From an uncultured Bacteroidales bacterium (GTDB taxonomy: Bacteria; Bacteroidota; Bacteroidia; Bacteroidales; FEN-979), in NCBI GenBank assembly GCA_903925275.1, contig CAIYES010000393.1, positions 1 to 34,248 on the forward strand: a stretch of DNA of 34,248 nucleotides, in the 5' to 3' direction. The translations under genes and the position numbers were made by a program. Shown here piece after piece: positions 22,912-29,989 of the stretch (position 1 is the stretch's first letter; each line of letters begins with the position of its first letter). The notes below the pieces were generated by a model, which saw only the letters and a program-made list of their open reading frames with translations, searched no databases and was not told the origin of the DNA.

Positions 22912-25590
22912 ATGGAAAATCTACCAAATCTGCTTATTGTTGACGACCACAAGGAAAATCTGGCTTTACTTGAAAACATCATAAAAAAAATCAAAGTAAA
23001 CCTGATTCAGGCGCAATCGGGCCCGGAGGCACTGGAGATAACCCATGGAGTTGAACTTGCGCTTGCAATCATCGACGTGCGCATGCCCGGAATGAACGGT
23101 TATGAGCTGGCATTGATAATGAATCAAGAAAGATCGGAGGGGAAAGTACCAATAATTTTTCTTACAGCCAGCAATGTCAATGAAAGTCAAATTACCGAAG
23201 GGTACGGTTTCGGTGCGGTCGATTACATGTTCAAACCGATTGATAGCAATATCCTGGTAAGTAAAATCAACGTATTTCTTGATCTTTTCAATCAGAAACA
23301 AACAATTATTAGGGATACGGCGCTTTTAAAAAAATCCGCCCATGAATTAACCATCGTCAATGCTGCCCTGAAACAGAGTGAAGAAAAATACAGGAGTTAC
23401 ATCGATAATGCGCCTGACGGTGTTTTCGTTGCTGATGAAAACGGGAAATACATCGAAGTGAACGAAGCGGCATGCAGAATAACAGGATATTCTGAAGATG
23501 AACTTCTTAAAATGTCGATTTCGGATCTCCTCCCGGTAGAATCGTACGAAGATGGCCTTGCACATTTCAGGAAGGTGGTTACAACCGGCACATCAAAAGT
23601 TGATATGTTGTTTAAACATAAATCCGGAACCAACCGATGGTGGGCTGTAGAAGCTGTCAAACTCAGTGAAACACGATTTCTTGGTTTTACAAAAGATATT
23701 ACCGGGCGCAAGCAGATGGAGGAGTCGCTGCGTTTGAGTGAAGAGAAGTACCGCCTGATGATAGACACCATGCACGAATCAGTTGTCGTTGCACAAGAAG
23801 GTAGGCTCAAGTTTTTCAATCATATGACGCTTAACCTGTTGGAGGATTATTCAGCGCAGGAACTCTTCGATATCCCATTTGTCGAATTTATTCACCCGGA
23901 TGATCGGAACGTTGTGTTTGAAAATCACCAGCGACGGATCAAAAACGAGGAAGTACACCCGACTTACACCTTCAGGATAATTACCCGTAAAGGCATTGTC
24001 AAGTGGTTGGAAATCAATGCGGTCTTGTTTGAATGGCAAGGTAAACCAGCCACCTTGAATTTTCTCAACGACATCACCAAACGCAAGCACTCCGAAGAAG
24101 CATTAAGGGAAAGCGAAGCATTGTTCAGGTCTGTCGTCTACAATAGTTCGGATTTAACGATTCTGACAGATGAACAAGGTATCACAACATTCTGTAGCCC
24201 TCAGTGTGAAAGTGTTATCGGGTTTTCGGGCGACAAATTTATCGGGAATACAATGCCTGACATTATCCATCACGACGATGTAGCCAGGTCTCAACAAGCC
24301 TGGGAAAAAGTAATTGATCAGAAGCAGGAATTGCGTGATTTTGAATATCGCATTGTTGATAAGGAAGGAATGGTGAGATGGTTGTCTCATACTGCAAATT
24401 GGATCAAAATGGATGATAAAGTTTATGGTATTCAGAACACCATAAGCAACATCACCAAACGCAAACAGGCTGAGCAGGCGCTGAGGATAAGCGAAGAAAA
24501 ATACAAAACAATGTTAAATGCTTCACCCGATGGAATTTTATTAATCGACCTGAAAGGGATCATTACCGAGGTTTCAGAAATCGGGTTGGAATTATTTGGC
24601 GCAGATAACAAAGATGACCTGGTGGGCAAAGATGTTTATCAATTCGTTCCAAATGACGAAACAAACACGATCCAGGACATTTTTGAAAAGACCACAAATG
24701 AAGGACTGGTACAAAATATCGGGATAAAAATCAAAAAGAAAAACCAATCAATTTTTTTTAGTGAAATCAGCTCCACTTTAATACAAAGCCCGCAAGGAGC
24801 ACCATTGTCATTCATGATCATTATCCGTGATATTTCCCAACGCAAAAAAATGGAGACGAAGCAAATCCATGCCGACCGTATGGCTAACCTTGGGGAAATG
24901 GCATCAGGCATTGCACATGAGATTAACCAACCATTGAATATCATTTCAATGGTAATGGATAAAATCTTATTTGAATCCGCCAAAACTGAATCTATCAATC
25001 TCGAATTCCTGAAAAAAAAGTCAGACAAAATTTTCGAAAATATTACCCGGATGAGGAACATCATTGACCATATCAGGGCATTTTCGAGAAGCCATGAAGA
25101 TTATCTTTTAACAGCTTTTGACATAAACACAAGCATCGAAAATGCTGCTTCGATGATATTGGAACAGTTCAAACACCTTGGAATCAGCCTGGAATTTCAG
25201 CTTGAGCCACAAATTCCTCAGATATTGGGTAACACGTATAAGTTTGAGCAGGTAATCCTTAATCTGTTGGTCAATGCCAAAGATGCCGTTATCGAAAAGA
25301 AAGGCAGGCAGGAAGAAAATTTTGAAATGATCGTTGGAATCAAATCCTATCTGGAGTCTCAATTTCTCATCGTTGAAATATCAGATAATGGCATCGGAAT
25401 CAATAATGACGATATCCAGCATATTATACTGCCATTCTATACTACCAAGGATGAAGGTAAAGGAACCGGACTCGGCTTAACAATTTGTTATCAGATAATT
25501 AAGGAGATGGGGGGAACCATAGAAATAACGAGCGACGGTTTTCAAGGAACAAAAATTAAATTAATTTTGGAAAGTCAAAAGAAAAAGTAA
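22912..25590 (+). CDS. Soluble REC-PAS(x4)-histidine kinase
   Basis: The 892-aa protein begins with a receiver domain (1 to ~125: DD at 11-12, phospho-acceptor D55, T85, K108). Four PAS units follow, at about 156-270, 278-395, 399-520 and 527-650, each introduced by a S/E-E-K-Y/F-R/K-type linker. The HisKA domain has IAHEINQPL with the phospho-accepting His669. The HATPase domain (about 765-890) has NLLVNAKDAV (N box), DNGIGI and EGKGTGLGL. No membrane segments are visible, so it senses cytoplasmic signals, perhaps redox, gas or a small ligand. It sits 2 bases before an NtrC-type regulator and just upstream of gvpA, so it is a good candidate controller of gas vesicle synthesis. Confidence 0.93.
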   Translation: MENLPNLLIVDDHKENLALLENIIKKIKVNLIQAQSGPEALEITHGVELALAIIDVRMPGMNGYELALIMNQERSEGKVPIIFLTASNVNESQITEGYGFGAVDYMFKPIDSNILVSKINVFLDLFNQKQTIIRDTALLKKSAHELTIVNAALKQSEEKYRSYIDNAPDGVFVADENGKYIEVNEAACRITGYSEDELLKMSISDLLPVESYEDGLAHFRKVVTTGTSKVDMLFKHKSGTNRWWAVEAVKLSETRFLGFTKDITGRKQMEESLRLSEEKYRLMIDTMHESVVVAQEGRLKFFNHMTLNLLEDYSAQELFDIPFVEFIHPDDRNVVFENHQRRIKNEEVHPTYTFRIITRKGIVKWLEINAVLFEWQGKPATLNFLNDITKRKHSEEALRESEALFRSVVYNSSDLTILTDEQGITTFCSPQCESVIGFSGDKFIGNTMPDIIHHDDVARSQQAWEKVIDQKQELRDFEYRIVDKEGMVRWLSHTANWIKMDDKVYGIQNTISNITKRKQAEQALRISEEKYKTMLNASPDGILLIDLKGIITEVSEIGLELFGADNKDDLVGKDVYQFVPNDETNTIQDIFEKTTNEGLVQNIGIKIKKKNQSIFFSEISSTLIQSPQGAPLSFMIIIRDISQRKKMETKQIHADRMANLGEMASGIAHEINQPLNIISMVMDKILFESAKTESINLEFLKKKSDKIFENITRMRNIIDHIRAFSRSHEDYLLTAFDINTSIENAASMILEQFKHLGISLEFQLEPQIPQILGNTYKFEQVILNLLVNAKDAVIEKKGRQEENFEMIVGIKSYLESQFLIVEISDNGIGINNDDIQHIILPFYTTKDEGKGTGLGLTICYQIIKEMGGTIEITSDGFQGTKIKLILESQKKK

Positions 25591-25592
25591 AA

Positions 25593-26981
25593 ATGGCACC
25601 GCGAGATAAAATAAAAATCCTGATCCTTGATGACGAGAAGCAGTTTACTGAAGAATTGAGTGGTTTTTTTCTGGATTCAGACTATGAATCATTTGAAGCC
25701 AACACAGCAGCTGAAGGGAAAAAAATATTAATCAACCATGAAATTGACCTCCTGATCCTCGACGTGCGGCTGCCCGGCGTGAATGGCCTGGATATTTTAA
25801 AAGAGGTGAAGACCCAATATTCCAACATGGAAGTCATCATCATATCGGCTCATGGCGACATGGATACGGTCATTAAGGCCATGCGACTGGGGGCATTCGA
25901 TTATTTACGCAAACCCTTCAGATATATTGACATTCAGATTGCCATTGAACGTACCCAGAAATACCTTCAACTGCAACGAAGGCTGAAACAGATGGAAGAA
26001 AGGAATTCCCTGATCTCAAAGAACCTTGAAGAAAAAATTGACCGGCAATTTATCGGTGTAAGTCCTCAGATTCTTGAGGTATTCGAACAAGCTATTACCG
26101 CAGCAAAATATCCTGAAGCCAATGTACTGATTACCGGCGAAAGTGGAACCGGAAAAGAAAATATTGCCCGGATCATTCACTACTCAAGCATGAGGAAAGA
26201 CCATGTTTTTTGTGCCGTTAACAGCAGCGCCATCTCTGAAACGCTTCTGGAGAGTGAATTTTTTGGCCATAAAAAAGGATCTTTTACAGGCGCCATCAAC
26301 GACAAAATGGGTTTCTTTGAAGTGTGTAACCAGGGAACCTTATTTCTTGATGAAATTGCCGACATGCCGTTTAATTTACAGGCAAAAATTTTGCGTGCAA
26401 CCGAAGAAAAAGTGATCACGAGGGTTGGTGATACTAACCAGATTCATACCGACTTCCGGATCATTTCAGCAACAAATCACGATATTGAAAGTCGGGTTGA
26501 AGAAAGAAAATTCAGGCTTGACCTGCTTCACCGGCTTAATACCCTGCACATACATATTCCAGCCTTGCGTGAAAGACCCGAAGATATCAAACCCCTGCTG
26601 ATCCATTTTGTTGATGTTTATGCAACCCGGTTTTCAAAACCAAACATCCGGGTCTCAGAGGAGGTTTTTGATTTACTCCTGAAATATGATTTCCCTGGAA
26701 ATGTAAGAGAATTGAGGAATATGACCGAAAGGGCCATCATCCTGTGCAAAGGCAACCTGCTCGGAATAAATGACTTTCCGGTAAAACCTCAAAAAAATTC
26801 CACATCTGAGGAACATACTGAATCTGTAAATCTGAAAATGAATGAACTCAGTTTGATTCAAAAAGCGCTTAAAAGGTCCAAATACAATCACCAGGCAACA
26901 GCTGATGCGCTCGGAATTCACCGTGATGCGCTTAGCAGGAAAATGAAAAAGTATAATCTCACCAGCAAGAATGAAGATTGA
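25593..26981 (+). CDS. NtrC-family sigma-54 response regulator, probable activator of the gvp operon
   Basis: The 462-aa protein has a receiver domain (D57, K107), an AAA+ sigma-54 interaction domain with Walker A GESGTGKE (182-189), the sigma-54 contacting loop GSFTGA (229-234), Walker B FLDEI (251-255) and the arginine-finger region. A Fis-type helix-turn-helix sits at the C-terminus (HQATADALGIHRDALSRKM). It should be phosphorylated by the kinase encoded 2 bases upstream and then open sigma-54 promoters. A -24/-12 element lies 293 bases downstream, in front of gvpA. The gene is followed by an octamer array and an intrinsic terminator, so it forms its own unit with the kinase. Confidence 0.94.
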   Translation: MAPRDKIKILILDDEKQFTEELSGFFLDSDYESFEANTAAEGKKILINHEIDLLILDVRLPGVNGLDILKEVKTQYSNMEVIIISAHGDMDTVIKAMRLGAFDYLRKPFRYIDIQIAIERTQKYLQLQRRLKQMEERNSLISKNLEEKIDRQFIGVSPQILEVFEQAITAAKYPEANVLITGESGTGKENIARIIHYSSMRKDHVFCAVNSSAISETLLESEFFGHKKGSFTGAINDKMGFFEVCNQGTLFLDEIADMPFNLQAKILRATEEKVITRVGDTNQIHTDFRIISATNHDIESRVEERKFRLDLLHRLNTLHIHIPALRERPEDIKPLLIHFVDVYATRFSKPNIRVSEEVFDLLLKYDFPGNVRELRNMTERAIILCKGNLLGINDFPVKPQKNSTSEEHTESVNLKMNELSLIQKALKRSKYNHQATADALGIHRDALSRKMKKYNLTSKNED

Positions 26982-26987
26982 CTGAGT

Positions 26988-27067
26988 GAGCGGGTAACCG
27001 TGTAAACGAGTAGACGGGTGAACGGGTAAACGGGTGAGCGGGTGAACGAGTAAACAGGTGAGCGGGT
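26988..27067. repeat. Array R1: ten degenerate 8-bp units after the activator gene
   Basis: Ten units of consensus RARCGGGT (for example GAACGGGT, AAACGGGT, GAGCGGGT) run without gaps, starting six bases after the activator stop. Copies differ by one or two bases. The array opens a long minus-strand reading frame that is not a gene. Confidence 0.9.
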
Positions 27068-27116
27068 CAAATGCGTTCCAATTAAACCAAAATTTCACTT
27101 TCCCAACACGCATTTT

Positions 27117-27140
27117 CGCGTACCATACGCGGTTTTTTTT
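27117..27140 (+). terminator. Intrinsic terminator of the kinase-activator unit
   Basis: CGCGTA (27117-27122) and TACGCG (27126-27131) form a 6-bp GC-rich stem with a 3-base loop, followed by G and eight T residues (27133-27140). It separates the two-component genes from the gvpA promoter region. Confidence 0.8.
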
Positions 27141-27145
27141 CTAAA

Positions 27146-27181
27146 ATTTTCAGTAATCCTGTGTTGGTTCTTACTGAAAAT
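27146..27181. promoter_or_regulatory. Perfect 11-bp inverted repeat, candidate upstream activating site
   Basis: ATTTTCAGTAA (27146-27156) and TTACTGAAAAT (27171-27181) are exact reverse complements around a 14-base spacer. They lie about 120-155 bases upstream of the predicted gvpA start of transcription, the normal range for enhancer sites of NtrC-type activators. The AT-rich stretch 27181-27230 between it and the promoter would suit DNA bending. Binding by the adjacent activator is inference. Confidence 0.55.
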
Positions 27182-27228
27182 ATCATTCTAAAAAAATTTA
27201 TTAAATTTTATTATTTTCATATTCATAT

Positions 27229-27257
27229 GATTAGCTGATCGGAATCACCCGATTAGC
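27229..27257 (+). promoter_or_regulatory. Direct repeats GATTAGC spaced 22 bp before the gvpA promoter
   Basis: GATTAGC occurs at 27229-27235 and again at 27251-27257, start to start 22 bases, about two helical turns. Between them ATCGG and CCGAT form a short inverted repeat. The position (about -45 to -70) suits a second regulator or IHF-like contact, but the motif is short and chance is possible. Confidence 0.3.
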
Positions 27258-27274
27258 ATTTTCCTGATATTTCC

Positions 27275-27288
27275 GGCACCCCCTTTGC
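27275..27288 (+). promoter_or_regulatory. Sigma-54 promoter of gvpA (-24/-12 element)
   Basis: GGCAC (27275-27279), five bases, then TTGC (27285-27288), with T following, matches TGGCAC-N5-TTGCW except for the first base (C instead of T). The invariant GG-N10-GC spacing is exact. Transcription would start near 27300, leaving a leader of about 70 bases to gvpA. The neighbouring gene encodes a sigma-54 activator, which strengthens the call. Confidence 0.8.
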
Positions 27289-27370
27289 TTAGCCTTTCGG
27301 TACAAGAGGTAAACCGTCCCTCAAATGTCAAGCACGGTATAAACAATAACTAATATAGGAGATTAAAAAA

Positions 27371-27574
27371 ATGGTAGAAAAGACAATCGGGTCATCCAGC
27401 CTCGTAGAGGTAATTGACCGTATCCTTGACAAAGGTGTTGTAGTTGATGCATGGGTAAGAGTTTCTTTGGTTGGTATCGAACTGCTTGCTATTGAAGCAA
27501 GGGTAGTCGTAGCCTCTGTTGAAACATACCTGAAGTATGCAGAAGCAATCGGATTAACTGCCAAAGCCGCATAA
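27371..27574 (+). CDS. gvpA: Gas vesicle major structural protein GvpA
   Basis: The 67-aa protein is a near-canonical Gvp[33 protein letters not shown] followed by a second helix with [22 protein letters not shown]. It polymerises into the ribbed, gas-permeable shell wall of gas vesicles, giving buoyancy. A good ribosome site (GGAG, 27358-27361) sits 9 bases before the ATG, one of the few strong ones in the window. It is preceded by the sigma-54 promoter and followed by a 166-base spacer that may lower read-through into accessory genes. Confidence 0.98.
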
Positions 27575-27684: not shown

Positions 27685-27740
27685 CAACCCATCAACCCAT
27701 CAACCCATCAACCCATCAACCTGCAAACCCATCAACCCCT
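27685..27740. repeat. Array R2: seven 8-bp units ending at a start codon
   Basis: Four exact CAACCCAT units are followed by three variants (CAACCTGC, AAACCCAT, CAACCCCT). The last unit abuts the ATG at 27741, so the array replaces the normal ribosome-binding region. The same unit recurs at 34084-34248. Confidence 0.92.
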
Positions 27741-28422: not shown

Positions 28423-29607
28423 ATGGGACTAGCATCAGAAATGAAAAATTTGACTGAAGAGTTACTTGCTTCTTTCAAACAACGGATCAAGGAAAATGAA
28501 GAGCTTGTAAACGATGTGCAAAAAACCCTTGATGGTTTCCACAAGGACCAGCAAGAGATGGCTAACGTTATCAAAGCAAATGCTGCAGCCTTAAGGAAAG
28601 GTCTTGCAAAGGGTGAAAAGGAACGGTTAAGTACTTATAAGGATTTAATGACCGGCATCCACAACACAATCGCTTCCATTCAAAAAGAAGTGGTGGCAAT
28701 TCAAACTTCTACCTTCAACATGATCAATGAATTCAATTCCGACAGGGCGCAAATGGCTGCCGATTTGAATAAATTCTTTTCAGATGGCCGGGCAGAGCGG
28801 ATGCAGGATGAAAAAATCAGAATGGAGGATTTTGATGCACTCATGAAAAACATCAACGATGATATAAAAAATATCAACGATGAAGTGTTAACGATTTTTA
28901 AAAATACAAACGATATGCTCGACCGGTTTGAAAAAGAGCATTTGAATATGTCGGCTGAGCTTCGGGCAGAACTGAGTAAAAATCTGACTGAAAGAGTTGA
29001 ATATACCAGAACATTGCTGAATGGGTTCCAGAAAAGATTATCGGAAATAAGCAAAGAAAATCAAAAAATGGCTCAGAAGTTGAGGAAAGACCTTGCCAAT
29101 GGTGAAACAGAAAGGCTTAAGGACTATAATGGAATAATGAAGGGAATCCATGCAGCCATAAAAAGTATCCGTACTGAAATTAAAAATATCAAAAATTCGA
29201 CAGCTGGAATGCTTGATGATCTCCTGCAGAACAGGGTTCAGGCCGCGGCTGATTGGGATAAGATGCAGGATGCCATGGCTCAGATAAGGAAAACAGGTAT
29301 TGTTACCGCTCCAAAACCGGCAGTCAAGAAAGCTGAAAAAAAAGAGGTGAAACCGGAAATCCCTGCTGAAGCCGTAAAGGAAATCCCTGTAAAAGTTGAA
29401 CCAAAGCTGGAACCAAAACCAGTAGTGGTATTGTCATTGGAAGATAAAGTGCTGAATTTTATCAACAAACATCCCAAGGGGGTGAAAATTTCTGAAATGG
29501 AAGAACCGCTCGGAGAAACACGGATGAAACTTGGATTTACTGCCAAAGCTCTATTGGATGATGGGAAAGTTCAAAAAATTGATAATATTTATTTCCCGTT
29601 AAAATAA
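28423..29607 (+). CDS. Repeat-containing helical gas vesicle protein with C-terminal winged-helix-like domain (394 aa)
   Basis: Residues 1-290 are a long helical region with repeated motifs: YKDLMTGIH (72-80), FDALMKNI (137-144), a degenerate YTRTLLNGF (194-202) and YNGIMKGIH (235-243), mostly preceded by a L-x-K/N-G-x-x-E-R segment. A Lys/Pro/Val/Glu linker (about 296-336) leads to a compact C-terminal domain (336-394, SLEDKVLNFINKHP ... DGKVQKIDNIYFP) that looks like a winged helix. The ribosome site (GGAG at 28411-28414) and leader closely resemble those of gvpA, suggesting strong translation. Helical repeats are reminiscent of GvpC, the outer scaffold of vesicles, but the motif differs. 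It is followed by a strong terminator. Confidence 0.87.
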   Translation: MGLASEMKNLTEELLASFKQRIKENEELVNDVQKTLDGFHKDQQEMANVIKANAAALRKGLAKGEKERLSTYKDLMTGIHNTIASIQKEVVAIQTSTFNMINEFNSDRAQMAADLNKFFSDGRAERMQDEKIRMEDFDALMKNINDDIKNINDEVLTIFKNTNDMLDRFEKEHLNMSAELRAELSKNLTERVEYTRTLLNGFQKRLSEISKENQKMAQKLRKDLANGETERLKDYNGIMKGIHAAIKSIRTEIKNIKNSTAGMLDDLLQNRVQAAADWDKMQDAMAQIRKTGIVTAPKPAVKKAEKKEVKPEIPAEAVKEIPVKVEPKLEPKPVVVLSLEDKVLNFINKHPKGVKISEMEEPLGETRMKLGFTAKALLDDGKVQKIDNIYFPLK

Positions 29608-29683: not shown

Positions 29684-29989
29684 ATGACAAAAATAATCAA
29701 ATGTGCATTTTGCAGCGGCACCGGAATGGATCCTTTCGACCTGCTATCGCCAATTTCACATTGCCTGGTTTGTAACAATACTGGACAAGTTGAAGTTGAA
29801 GAACCTGTAAAAAAATGTGTTTTTTGTTCGGGTACAGGTAAAAACCCGCTTGGCGCCAGGGTTCCGTGCATCGTATGTGGGGGCAAGGGATATAATCACA
29901 GTGAGAGCAACAAAAAATGCAGTCAATGCAAGGGAACCGGGAAATCAACCGATGGCCTTCCATGCACGCGTTGCGGAGGCATGGGTTAA
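29684..29989 (+). CDS. Six-knuckle CxxCxGxG (DnaJ-type zinc finger) protein
   Basis: The 101-aa protein consists of six C-x-x-C-x-x-x-G units: CAFCSGTG, CLVCNNTG, CVFCSGTG, CIVCGGKG, CSQCKGTG and CTRCGGMG. Two of these normally bind one Zn, so about three Zn sites are expected. DnaJ has four such units between its J and substrate domains; this protein has neither, so it is a stand-alone knuckle protein. DnaJ-type Zn domains help hold unfolded clients, so a role in handling the hydrophobic GvpA is a reasonable inference. It sits 16 bases after the terminator tract; no clear promoter is visible. Confidence 0.85.
   Translation: MTKIIKCAFCSGTGMDPFDLLSPISHCLVCNNTGQVEVEEPVKKCVFCSGTGKNPLGARVPCIVCGGKGYNHSESNKKCSQCKGTGKSTDGLPCTRCGGMG

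Follow-up and report, generated by a model that had tools for sequence, protein, structure and literature searches.

What controls gas vesicle synthesis in an uncultured Bacteroidales bacterium, and does it have a dedicated regulator for the purpose? The question is raised by a 34,248-nucleotide (nt) stretch of DNA (contig CAIYES010000393.1 of assembly GCA_903925275.1; hereafter the window), in which genes for a sensor histidine kinase and an NtrC-type activator lie upstream of gvpA, the gene for the major gas vesicle shell protein. A preliminary description, made from the letters of the sequence, had proposed control by this pair through sigma-54. We conclude, with a probability of roughly 85% and on comparative sequence evidence, that the kinase and the activator, an enhancer-binding protein (EBP), form a dedicated gas vesicle regulator that would act through a sigma-54 promoter upstream of gvpA. 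The domains, the promoter motif, the presence of RpoN, the conservation of site and spacing, and the co-occurrence of EBP, promoter and a conserved 5' leader were all computed here. The features of the window that bear on this conclusion are as follows.

22912-25590, plus strand: sensor histidine kinase gene, 892 amino acids (aa), domain order REC-PAS-PAS-PAS-PAS-HisKA-HATPase, predicted soluble
25593-26981, plus strand: NtrC-type sigma-54 activator (EBP) gene, 462 aa, REC-AAA(GSFTGA)-Fis helix-turn-helix (HTH), the proposed dedicated gvp activator
27192-27211: A-tract/T-tract at a fixed distance upstream of the -24, from column conservation (one column is T in 40 of 41 rows)
27223-27238: candidate upstream activator site TCATATGATTAGCTGA, consensus TCAG-N8-CTGA, centred about -70 from the predicted start
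27275-27288, plus strand: sigma-54 -24/-12 element GGCAC-N5-TTGC, with GG-N10-GC spacing, kept in relatives
27300, plus strand: predicted gvpA transcription start, 12 nt after the C of the -12
27306-27337, plus strand: conserved leader, a putative H-type pseudoknot (GAGG 27306-27309 with CCTC 27319-27322; CCGT 27314-27317 with ACGG 27334-27337)
27357-27361, plus strand: AGGAG, Shine-Dalgarno-like, ahead of gvpA, from the leader alignment
27371-27574, plus strand: gvpA (NCBIfam NF006874, 132.2 bits against a cut-off of 100)

The kinase and activator genes

The preliminary description gave the coordinates and domains of the two regulatory genes correctly: a REC-PAS4 kinase and an NtrC-type activator with GSFTGA and a Fis-like HTH are encoded upstream of gvpA on the same strand. 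The genes are separated by 2 nt, and the 389-nt interval between the activator and gvpA holds no plus-strand gene of note. The activator matches Response_reg, Sigma54_activat, AAA_lid_14 and HTH_8 in Pfam and carries GSFTGA at residue 229, GESGTGKE at 182 and LDVRLPG at 56. It has the REC domain with its Asp, the AAA+ Walker A motif, the GAFTGA-type loop (here GSFTGA) and the Fis-type HTH of response-regulator-class sigma-54 activators, and shares the full domain set and motifs of NtrC/AtoC-type response regulators (PF00158 with REC and HTH_8). The top NCBIfam models are AtoC (360.6 bits, cut-off 714) and NtrC (346.2 bits, cut-off 558.6); because these scores fall far under the equivalog cut-offs, the protein is neither AtoC nor NtrC itself. 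The genome also encodes RpoN, on which the proposal depends, with the DNA-binding domain found in a single copy (162.1 bits, cut-off 22.8).

Pfam identifies Response_reg, four PAS stretches, HisKA and HATPase_c in the kinase, and hydropathy indicates no obvious membrane span (top 19-residue Kyte-Doolittle mean 1.31). REC, PAS and HATPase occur in the kinases of all eight Bacteroidales neighbours scanned (one REC is partial), and neither of the two Chlorobium-type kinases scanned gave a REC match. Since the window kinase has its REC domain at the N-terminal end, a further kinase may feed into it. This REC head, together with the differing length and PAS content among kinase relatives, suggests diverse or layered input.

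Conservation of the sigma-54 element

The preliminary description noted GGCAC-N5-TTGC in the interval that separates the activator from gvpA. The window has a single copy of this element, where shuffles predict 0.15 occurrences (14 of 100 shuffles had at least one). It ends 82 nt ahead of gvpA and reads CGGCAC-N5-TTGC, with C instead of T before GG. Transcription from sigma-54 promoters starts about 12 nt past the -12, the geometry used for the predicted start.

Relatives were compared in two sets, in which G numbers denote genomes, L numbers loci, and f136 and f147 families. For a set chosen by GvpA, 28 loci were fetched from 199 related genomes and 22 gvpA upstream regions were read, the window's included; loci without a first gvpA or without upstream DNA were left out. 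GG-N10-GC with a score of at least 8 lies 93-104 nt before the start codon in 11 of the 22. Eight more show the element by eye with the final C replaced by T or G (in L046 it lies further upstream), and three are without it: L042, L043 (215 nt upstream only) and L044 (a weak score-8 match at -58). Among nine Chlorobium-type loci (f136), TGGYAY-N5-NTGCW stands at -91 to -94 in six; L098 and L100 have neither site nor leader, and L105 is cut off.

The other set was picked by the leader, regardless of promoter. A pattern scan for the leader's 5' half in one genome per species across 84,980 species, whose counts are a lower bound, gave, together with the loci fetched earlier, at least 85 distinct contexts, at least 56 of them next to gvpA or cut off by a contig end ahead of it. 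Another 29 of the 85 were set aside: one (L120/L230) is a genuine leader where the contig breaks off, and 28, in scattered taxa and with no gvpA downstream, are taken as chance. Excluding internal tandem copies leaves 52 primary leaders of the 56. Among the matches listed, to which all counts of primary leaders refer, 46 have the -24/-12 element 28-40 nt ahead of the leader; in five more an insertion of ~72 nt puts it 102-104 nt upstream, leaving L215 as the sole primary leader without it. Scores of at least 9 (of 11) are reached at 37 of the 52, against 1.35 expected from dinucleotide shuffles, and scores of at least 10 at 20, against 0.20. In the 46 aligned promoter rows GG is invariant by row choice; TG at -12 was not required, yet it is also invariant.

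Co-occurrence of activator, gas vesicle genes and leader

GvpA-family genes were found in 23 of the 199 related genomes and in 38 of 395 genomes sampled from the phylum. At 78% identity or more, an EBP occurs in 16 of the 23 gvp-positive relatives versus 2 of the 176 gvp-negative ones (G001 and G026). One further gvp-positive genome, G054, has a 67% identical EBP adjoining gvpA, which brings the total with an ortholog to 17 of 23. Orthologs are also present in 17 of the 19 leader-bearing relatives. The gvp-positive genomes G034, G068 and G096 have no EBP ortholog and, by covariance-model search, no leader. G055, likewise gvp-positive and without the ortholog (its genome is 79% complete), has a deviant leader, L042, which the model matched at E 0.0015 only. 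L215 has no EBP within 2.5 kb upstream, and L215 and L042/G055 are the two leader-bearing Bacteroidales loci that lack a sigma-54 site.

In the phylum sample, the EBP was sought in 17 Chlorobium-type and f147 genomes. All 11 leader-bearing Chlorobium-type genomes have an ortholog of 59-62% identity, and none of the six leaderless genomes has a listed match above 45% (three Chlorobium-type, best-scoring 38-40%; three f147). In seven of the 11, the EBP lies on the gvp contig past the cluster's 3' end and on the opposite strand, as it does in G014. The preliminary description's arrangement of an activator directly upstream on the same strand therefore holds in the window and is not essential to the system. 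Its expectation that the -24/-12 element and the regulator would be conserved together at gvpA in relatives was borne out.

A tree of 45 EBPs (35 gvp-linked, 10 not) needs three changes of this label, against 9.3 when labels are shuffled. Eight of the non-gvp paralogs group together in a single clade. The EBP of L118, a G001 locus, is placed among the gvp-linked ones, as would be expected if the gvp genes had been lost. The neighbourhoods of the 10 non-gvp EBPs gave no match to the window's gvp proteins.

At L125-L132, in the same genus, two conserved groups of genes for exported-looking proteins lie downstream of paralogous kinase-EBP pairs. These pairs apparently control another regulon of this EBP family.

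A candidate activator site

The preliminary description overlooked two conserved elements, a palindrome upstream of the promoter and the leader downstream of it. When 41 Bacteroidales rows are anchored on the -24, a shared palindrome, TCAG-NNNNTTAG-CTGA, emerges; its top-scoring position is -51 or -50 in 31 of them. Palindrome scores of at least 9 of 12 occur in 26 of the 41 rows, against 1.48 expected from base shuffles. Ten Chlorobium-type rows keep some of the same columns, with T in 10 of 10 at both -65 and -57 and with T, T and A at -43 to -41 in 5, 8 and 7 of the 10. Because of its fixed position, the TCAG-N8-CTGA palindrome is a likely candidate for an EBP binding site.

A conserved leader ahead of gvpA

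The usual leader sequence is GAGGYAARCCGTCCCTC, then a spacer of 7-12 nt and ACGG, with AGGAG standing ahead of the start codon in most cases; individual rows deviate. The GAGG/CCTC and CCGT/ACGG pairings cross. Relative to the predicted start, the leader begins at +3 to +7 in 42 of 51 rows, at +12 to +15 in four and at +77 to +79 in five. Rfam 15 has no family in the window, and the three matches obtained for 27100-27420 (E 1.7-4.3) were all under the gathering score.

A covariance model, built on biased rows and run with stricter filters that lose weak matches, found the leader in 19 of the 199 relatives and 19 of the 395 phylum genomes (both lists include the window's own genome), all of them gvp-positive, and in 0 of 176 gvp-negative relatives and 0 of 357 gvp-negative phylum genomes. 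At 42 of the 45 covariance-model loci gvpA is present. L282 ends at a contig break behind the EBP; L287 (G008:C58) is a decayed gvp remnant that keeps a sigma-54-like element, the palindrome and the leader with no intact gvpA; and L289 (G009:C247) has a decayed promoter, palindrome and leader with no gvp gene seen. The leader also stands before internal tandem gvpA copies in four pattern-scan loci and in G175, and the second gvpA of the Chlorobium-type loci read is without one. It holds its position where the promoter type is replaced (L042), where an insertion separates it from the promoter, and before the internal gvpA copies.

The data agree with base pairing but support it weakly: pairing is found in 97.3% of cells versus 38-57% when the arms are slid, in a near-invariant sequence for which within-pair shuffles give 97.0%. 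The covariation score was reached by 46 of 500 shuffles and the pairing percentage by 89 of 500, and a single core pair is plainly changed on both sides (UA to CG, L104). Of 43 unique leaders, from 44 hand-picked among 66 covariance-model matches, 38 can form the whole GAGG stem and three all but one of its pairs; by the scoring used, 42 have a full CCGT stem, with the indel rows L042 and the second copy in L281 scored out of register. The full 66-match alignment was left unused; it included weak hits, several of which fell on ribosome sites elsewhere among the gvp genes. Pattern-scan rows were selected by the 5' half of the leader, which is why that half does not vary among them, and the GvpA-chosen and covariance-model rows are freer of this bias. 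The near-invariance of the leader may reflect a function in its sequence as much as in its fold.

A strong AGGAG ahead of a gene is unusual in Bacteroidota. It precedes the gvpA start codon in most rows and is missing in L175, L177, L198 and L207, where the leader is retained.

At the f147 loci L107, L108 and L110, TGGCAC or CGGCAT-N5-TTGTA can be recognized by eye upstream of gvpA. The leader there differs, with CCGCC and GGCGG arms, and is perhaps a second leader type.

Alternative explanations

Several observations weigh against a dedicated sigma-54 regulator. The strict pattern TGGCAYN5TTGCW is not enriched in the window's own genome, with 7 sites versus 7 for a control pattern, and genome-wide motif counting was dropped as evidence. 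Because of this lack of enrichment and the C before GG, the motif alone is weak evidence, and the comparative data carry the claim. The last base of the -12 is C in just 28 of the 46 promoter rows. G001 and G026 have EBPs of 80% and 78% identity and no GvpA-family match; G015 and G022 keep leader and promoter with no EBP ortholog found (best 39% and 61%), on contigs that begin 0.3 and 1.5 kb upstream of gvpA. In favour of a link between EBP and palindrome, palindrome scores are higher where the EBP has an HRDAL recognition helix (mean 10.15, n = 20, versus 7.67 in the others, n = 9; p = 0.001); the correlation is limited in that it ignores descent, uses a consensus mostly from the larger HRDAL group and leaves 12 of the 41 promoter rows with no EBP for pairing. 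Finally, cross-activation is possible, since some gvp-linked EBPs share an identical recognition helix with paralogs encoded next to other gene sets.

If gvpA were transcribed mainly from a housekeeping promoter, for which the Bacteroidota consensus is TAnnTTTG, the sigma-54-like site would be incidental. Such a promoter can apparently serve: at L042 (G055), where no EBP ortholog was found, a TAACTTTG promoter-like site lies 49 nt upstream of the leader. In the window, however, TAnnTTTG is absent from 26982-27370, and the sigma-54 site is held at 51 of the 52 primary leaders; we consider this explanation very improbable. Nor is it probable that a sigma-54 promoter is served mainly by another EBP of the genome while the neighbouring pair controls other genes. 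A first look at the genome did give 125 candidates for this EBP (best 8 of 125 scored), and paralogs 71-75% identical stand beside other gene sets with recognition helices like those of some gvp-linked EBPs. The linkage and co-occurrence of the EBP across Bacteroidales and Chlorobium-type genomes, even where it has moved to the cluster's other end, speak against this reading, as does the fixed position of the palindrome. The leader itself could be a DNA operator (ACCGT...ACGGT) for an unknown regulator instead of an RNA element. It is an inverted repeat, only the L104 pair is plainly compensatory, and the shuffles do not clearly reject chance covariation. Yet the stretch ahead of its last arm varies from 7 to 12 nt, and the leader is kept before promoter-less internal tandem gvpA copies and at a distance of ~72 nt of inserted DNA from the promoter; we regard an operator as unlikely, though worth keeping in view.

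The gas vesicle gene cluster

The remaining gvp cluster on the window contig spans 27741-33637 on the plus strand. It was annotated with Pfam and NCBIfam, and its gene order is the same in relatives.

27741 and 28423, plus strand: two coiled-coil-like open reading frames (ORFs), no family above cut-off
29684-29989, plus strand: DnaJ-zinc-finger-like ORF within the gvp cluster
30359, plus strand: gvpN
31478, plus strand: ORF
31798, plus strand: gvpJ-like
32178, plus strand: Hsp20/GvpH-like
32702, plus strand: ArsA/GET3-like

Contig C143 of the same genome encodes five gvpF/L, gvpG, gvpK and a third GvpA-family gene. Both contigs together hold the gvpA, gvpN, gvpF/L, gvpG, gvpK and gvpJ/M genes of a gas vesicle cluster.

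ORF 28423-29607 encodes 394 aa with coiled-coil-like repeats where GvpC might be expected; its tail looks winged-helix-like by eye, and no Pfam or NCBIfam family was found over the cut-off. L048 (G000:C143, 1357-2397) encodes a GvpL/GvpF protein fused to a C-terminal DnaJ J-domain, and the DnaJ-zinc-finger-like ORF of the window is free-standing. These DnaJ-type parts in gvp genes make a dedicated Hsp40-type helper for gas vesicles possible. Degenerate short repeats (GGGTGAACGAGTAAAC... and CAACCCATCAACCCAT...) occur in the intergenic spacers at 26982-27070 and 27690-27740 and at the contig end, 34130-34248.

A model for gvpA control and its relation to known systems

Under dedicated control by the kinase-EBP pair, the soluble kinase would integrate a cytoplasmic signal and phosphorylate the EBP. 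Such control may, as the preliminary description suggested, give a tight off state and link buoyancy to a PAS signal. Dimers of the EBP would occupy TCAG-N8-CTGA, whose centre lies ~70 bp ahead of the start; from there they would remodel the sigma-54 RNA polymerase at GGCAC-N5-TTGC and set off transcription near 27300. The gvpA transcript would open with the conserved short leader, perhaps an H-type pseudoknot, acting on RNA. We tentatively suggest that its most likely effect is higher gvpA translation or mRNA stability.

The preliminary description's case for sigma-54 control of gas vesicles is supported, but such control is not unprecedented. In Serratia sp. ATCC 39006, two papers (PMC4982088, PMC11778176) describe a gvpA1 operon under sigma-54 and the NtrC-family protein GvrA, encoded in the gas vesicle locus; the start mapped by 5' rapid amplification of cDNA ends (5'RACE) has potential -12/-24 sites, and an rpoN insertion mutant loses gas vesicles. 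The Serratia system resembles that proposed for the window in sigma-54 control of gvpA and an NtrC-family activator in the gvp locus. It differs in that its activator lies in a second operon with gvrB and gvrC and in that the quorum-sensing regulator SmaR represses gvpA1; the window instead has a kinase-EBP pair before gvpA, a palindromic site and a conserved leader. The Serratia cluster is reported to be upregulated under microaerophilic conditions, postulated to occur via the gvr operon (PMC11778176), and by analogy oxygen or redox state is a plausible signal here as well. For leader action, the 5' pseudoknot standby site of Escherichia coli tisB (PMC7708055) offers a model: there a pseudoknot near the 5' end of the mRNA precedes the ribosome site, in a different gene and context and with no homology claimed.

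In a mostly open-access literature, covered largely by listed titles, we found no report of sigma-54 control of gvpA or of the leader in Bacteroidota or green sulfur bacteria; passages of PMC2405808 and PMC8382752 added nothing, and a listed paper on Prosthecochloris (PMC10158934) mentions gas vesicles. What is already known, from Serratia 39006, is sigma-54 control of gvpA. What appears new from the comparisons is its spread over Bacteroidales and Chlorobiaceae, the architecture of the site and the conserved 5' leader with its putative H-type pseudoknot, of which the leader is the most novel part.

Gas vesicles are costly organelles and serve as genetic tools for imaging, and how cells come to make them has been worked out closely for few organisms. 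In uncultured lake Bacteroidales and in green sulfur bacteria, regulator, promoter and leader travel together. Each provides something that can be tested in a culturable Chlorobium: the soluble PAS kinase as a candidate input, the predicted start site, and the leader as a candidate RNA element. The findings suggest that enhancer-dependent control of buoyancy extends more widely than one Serratia strain.

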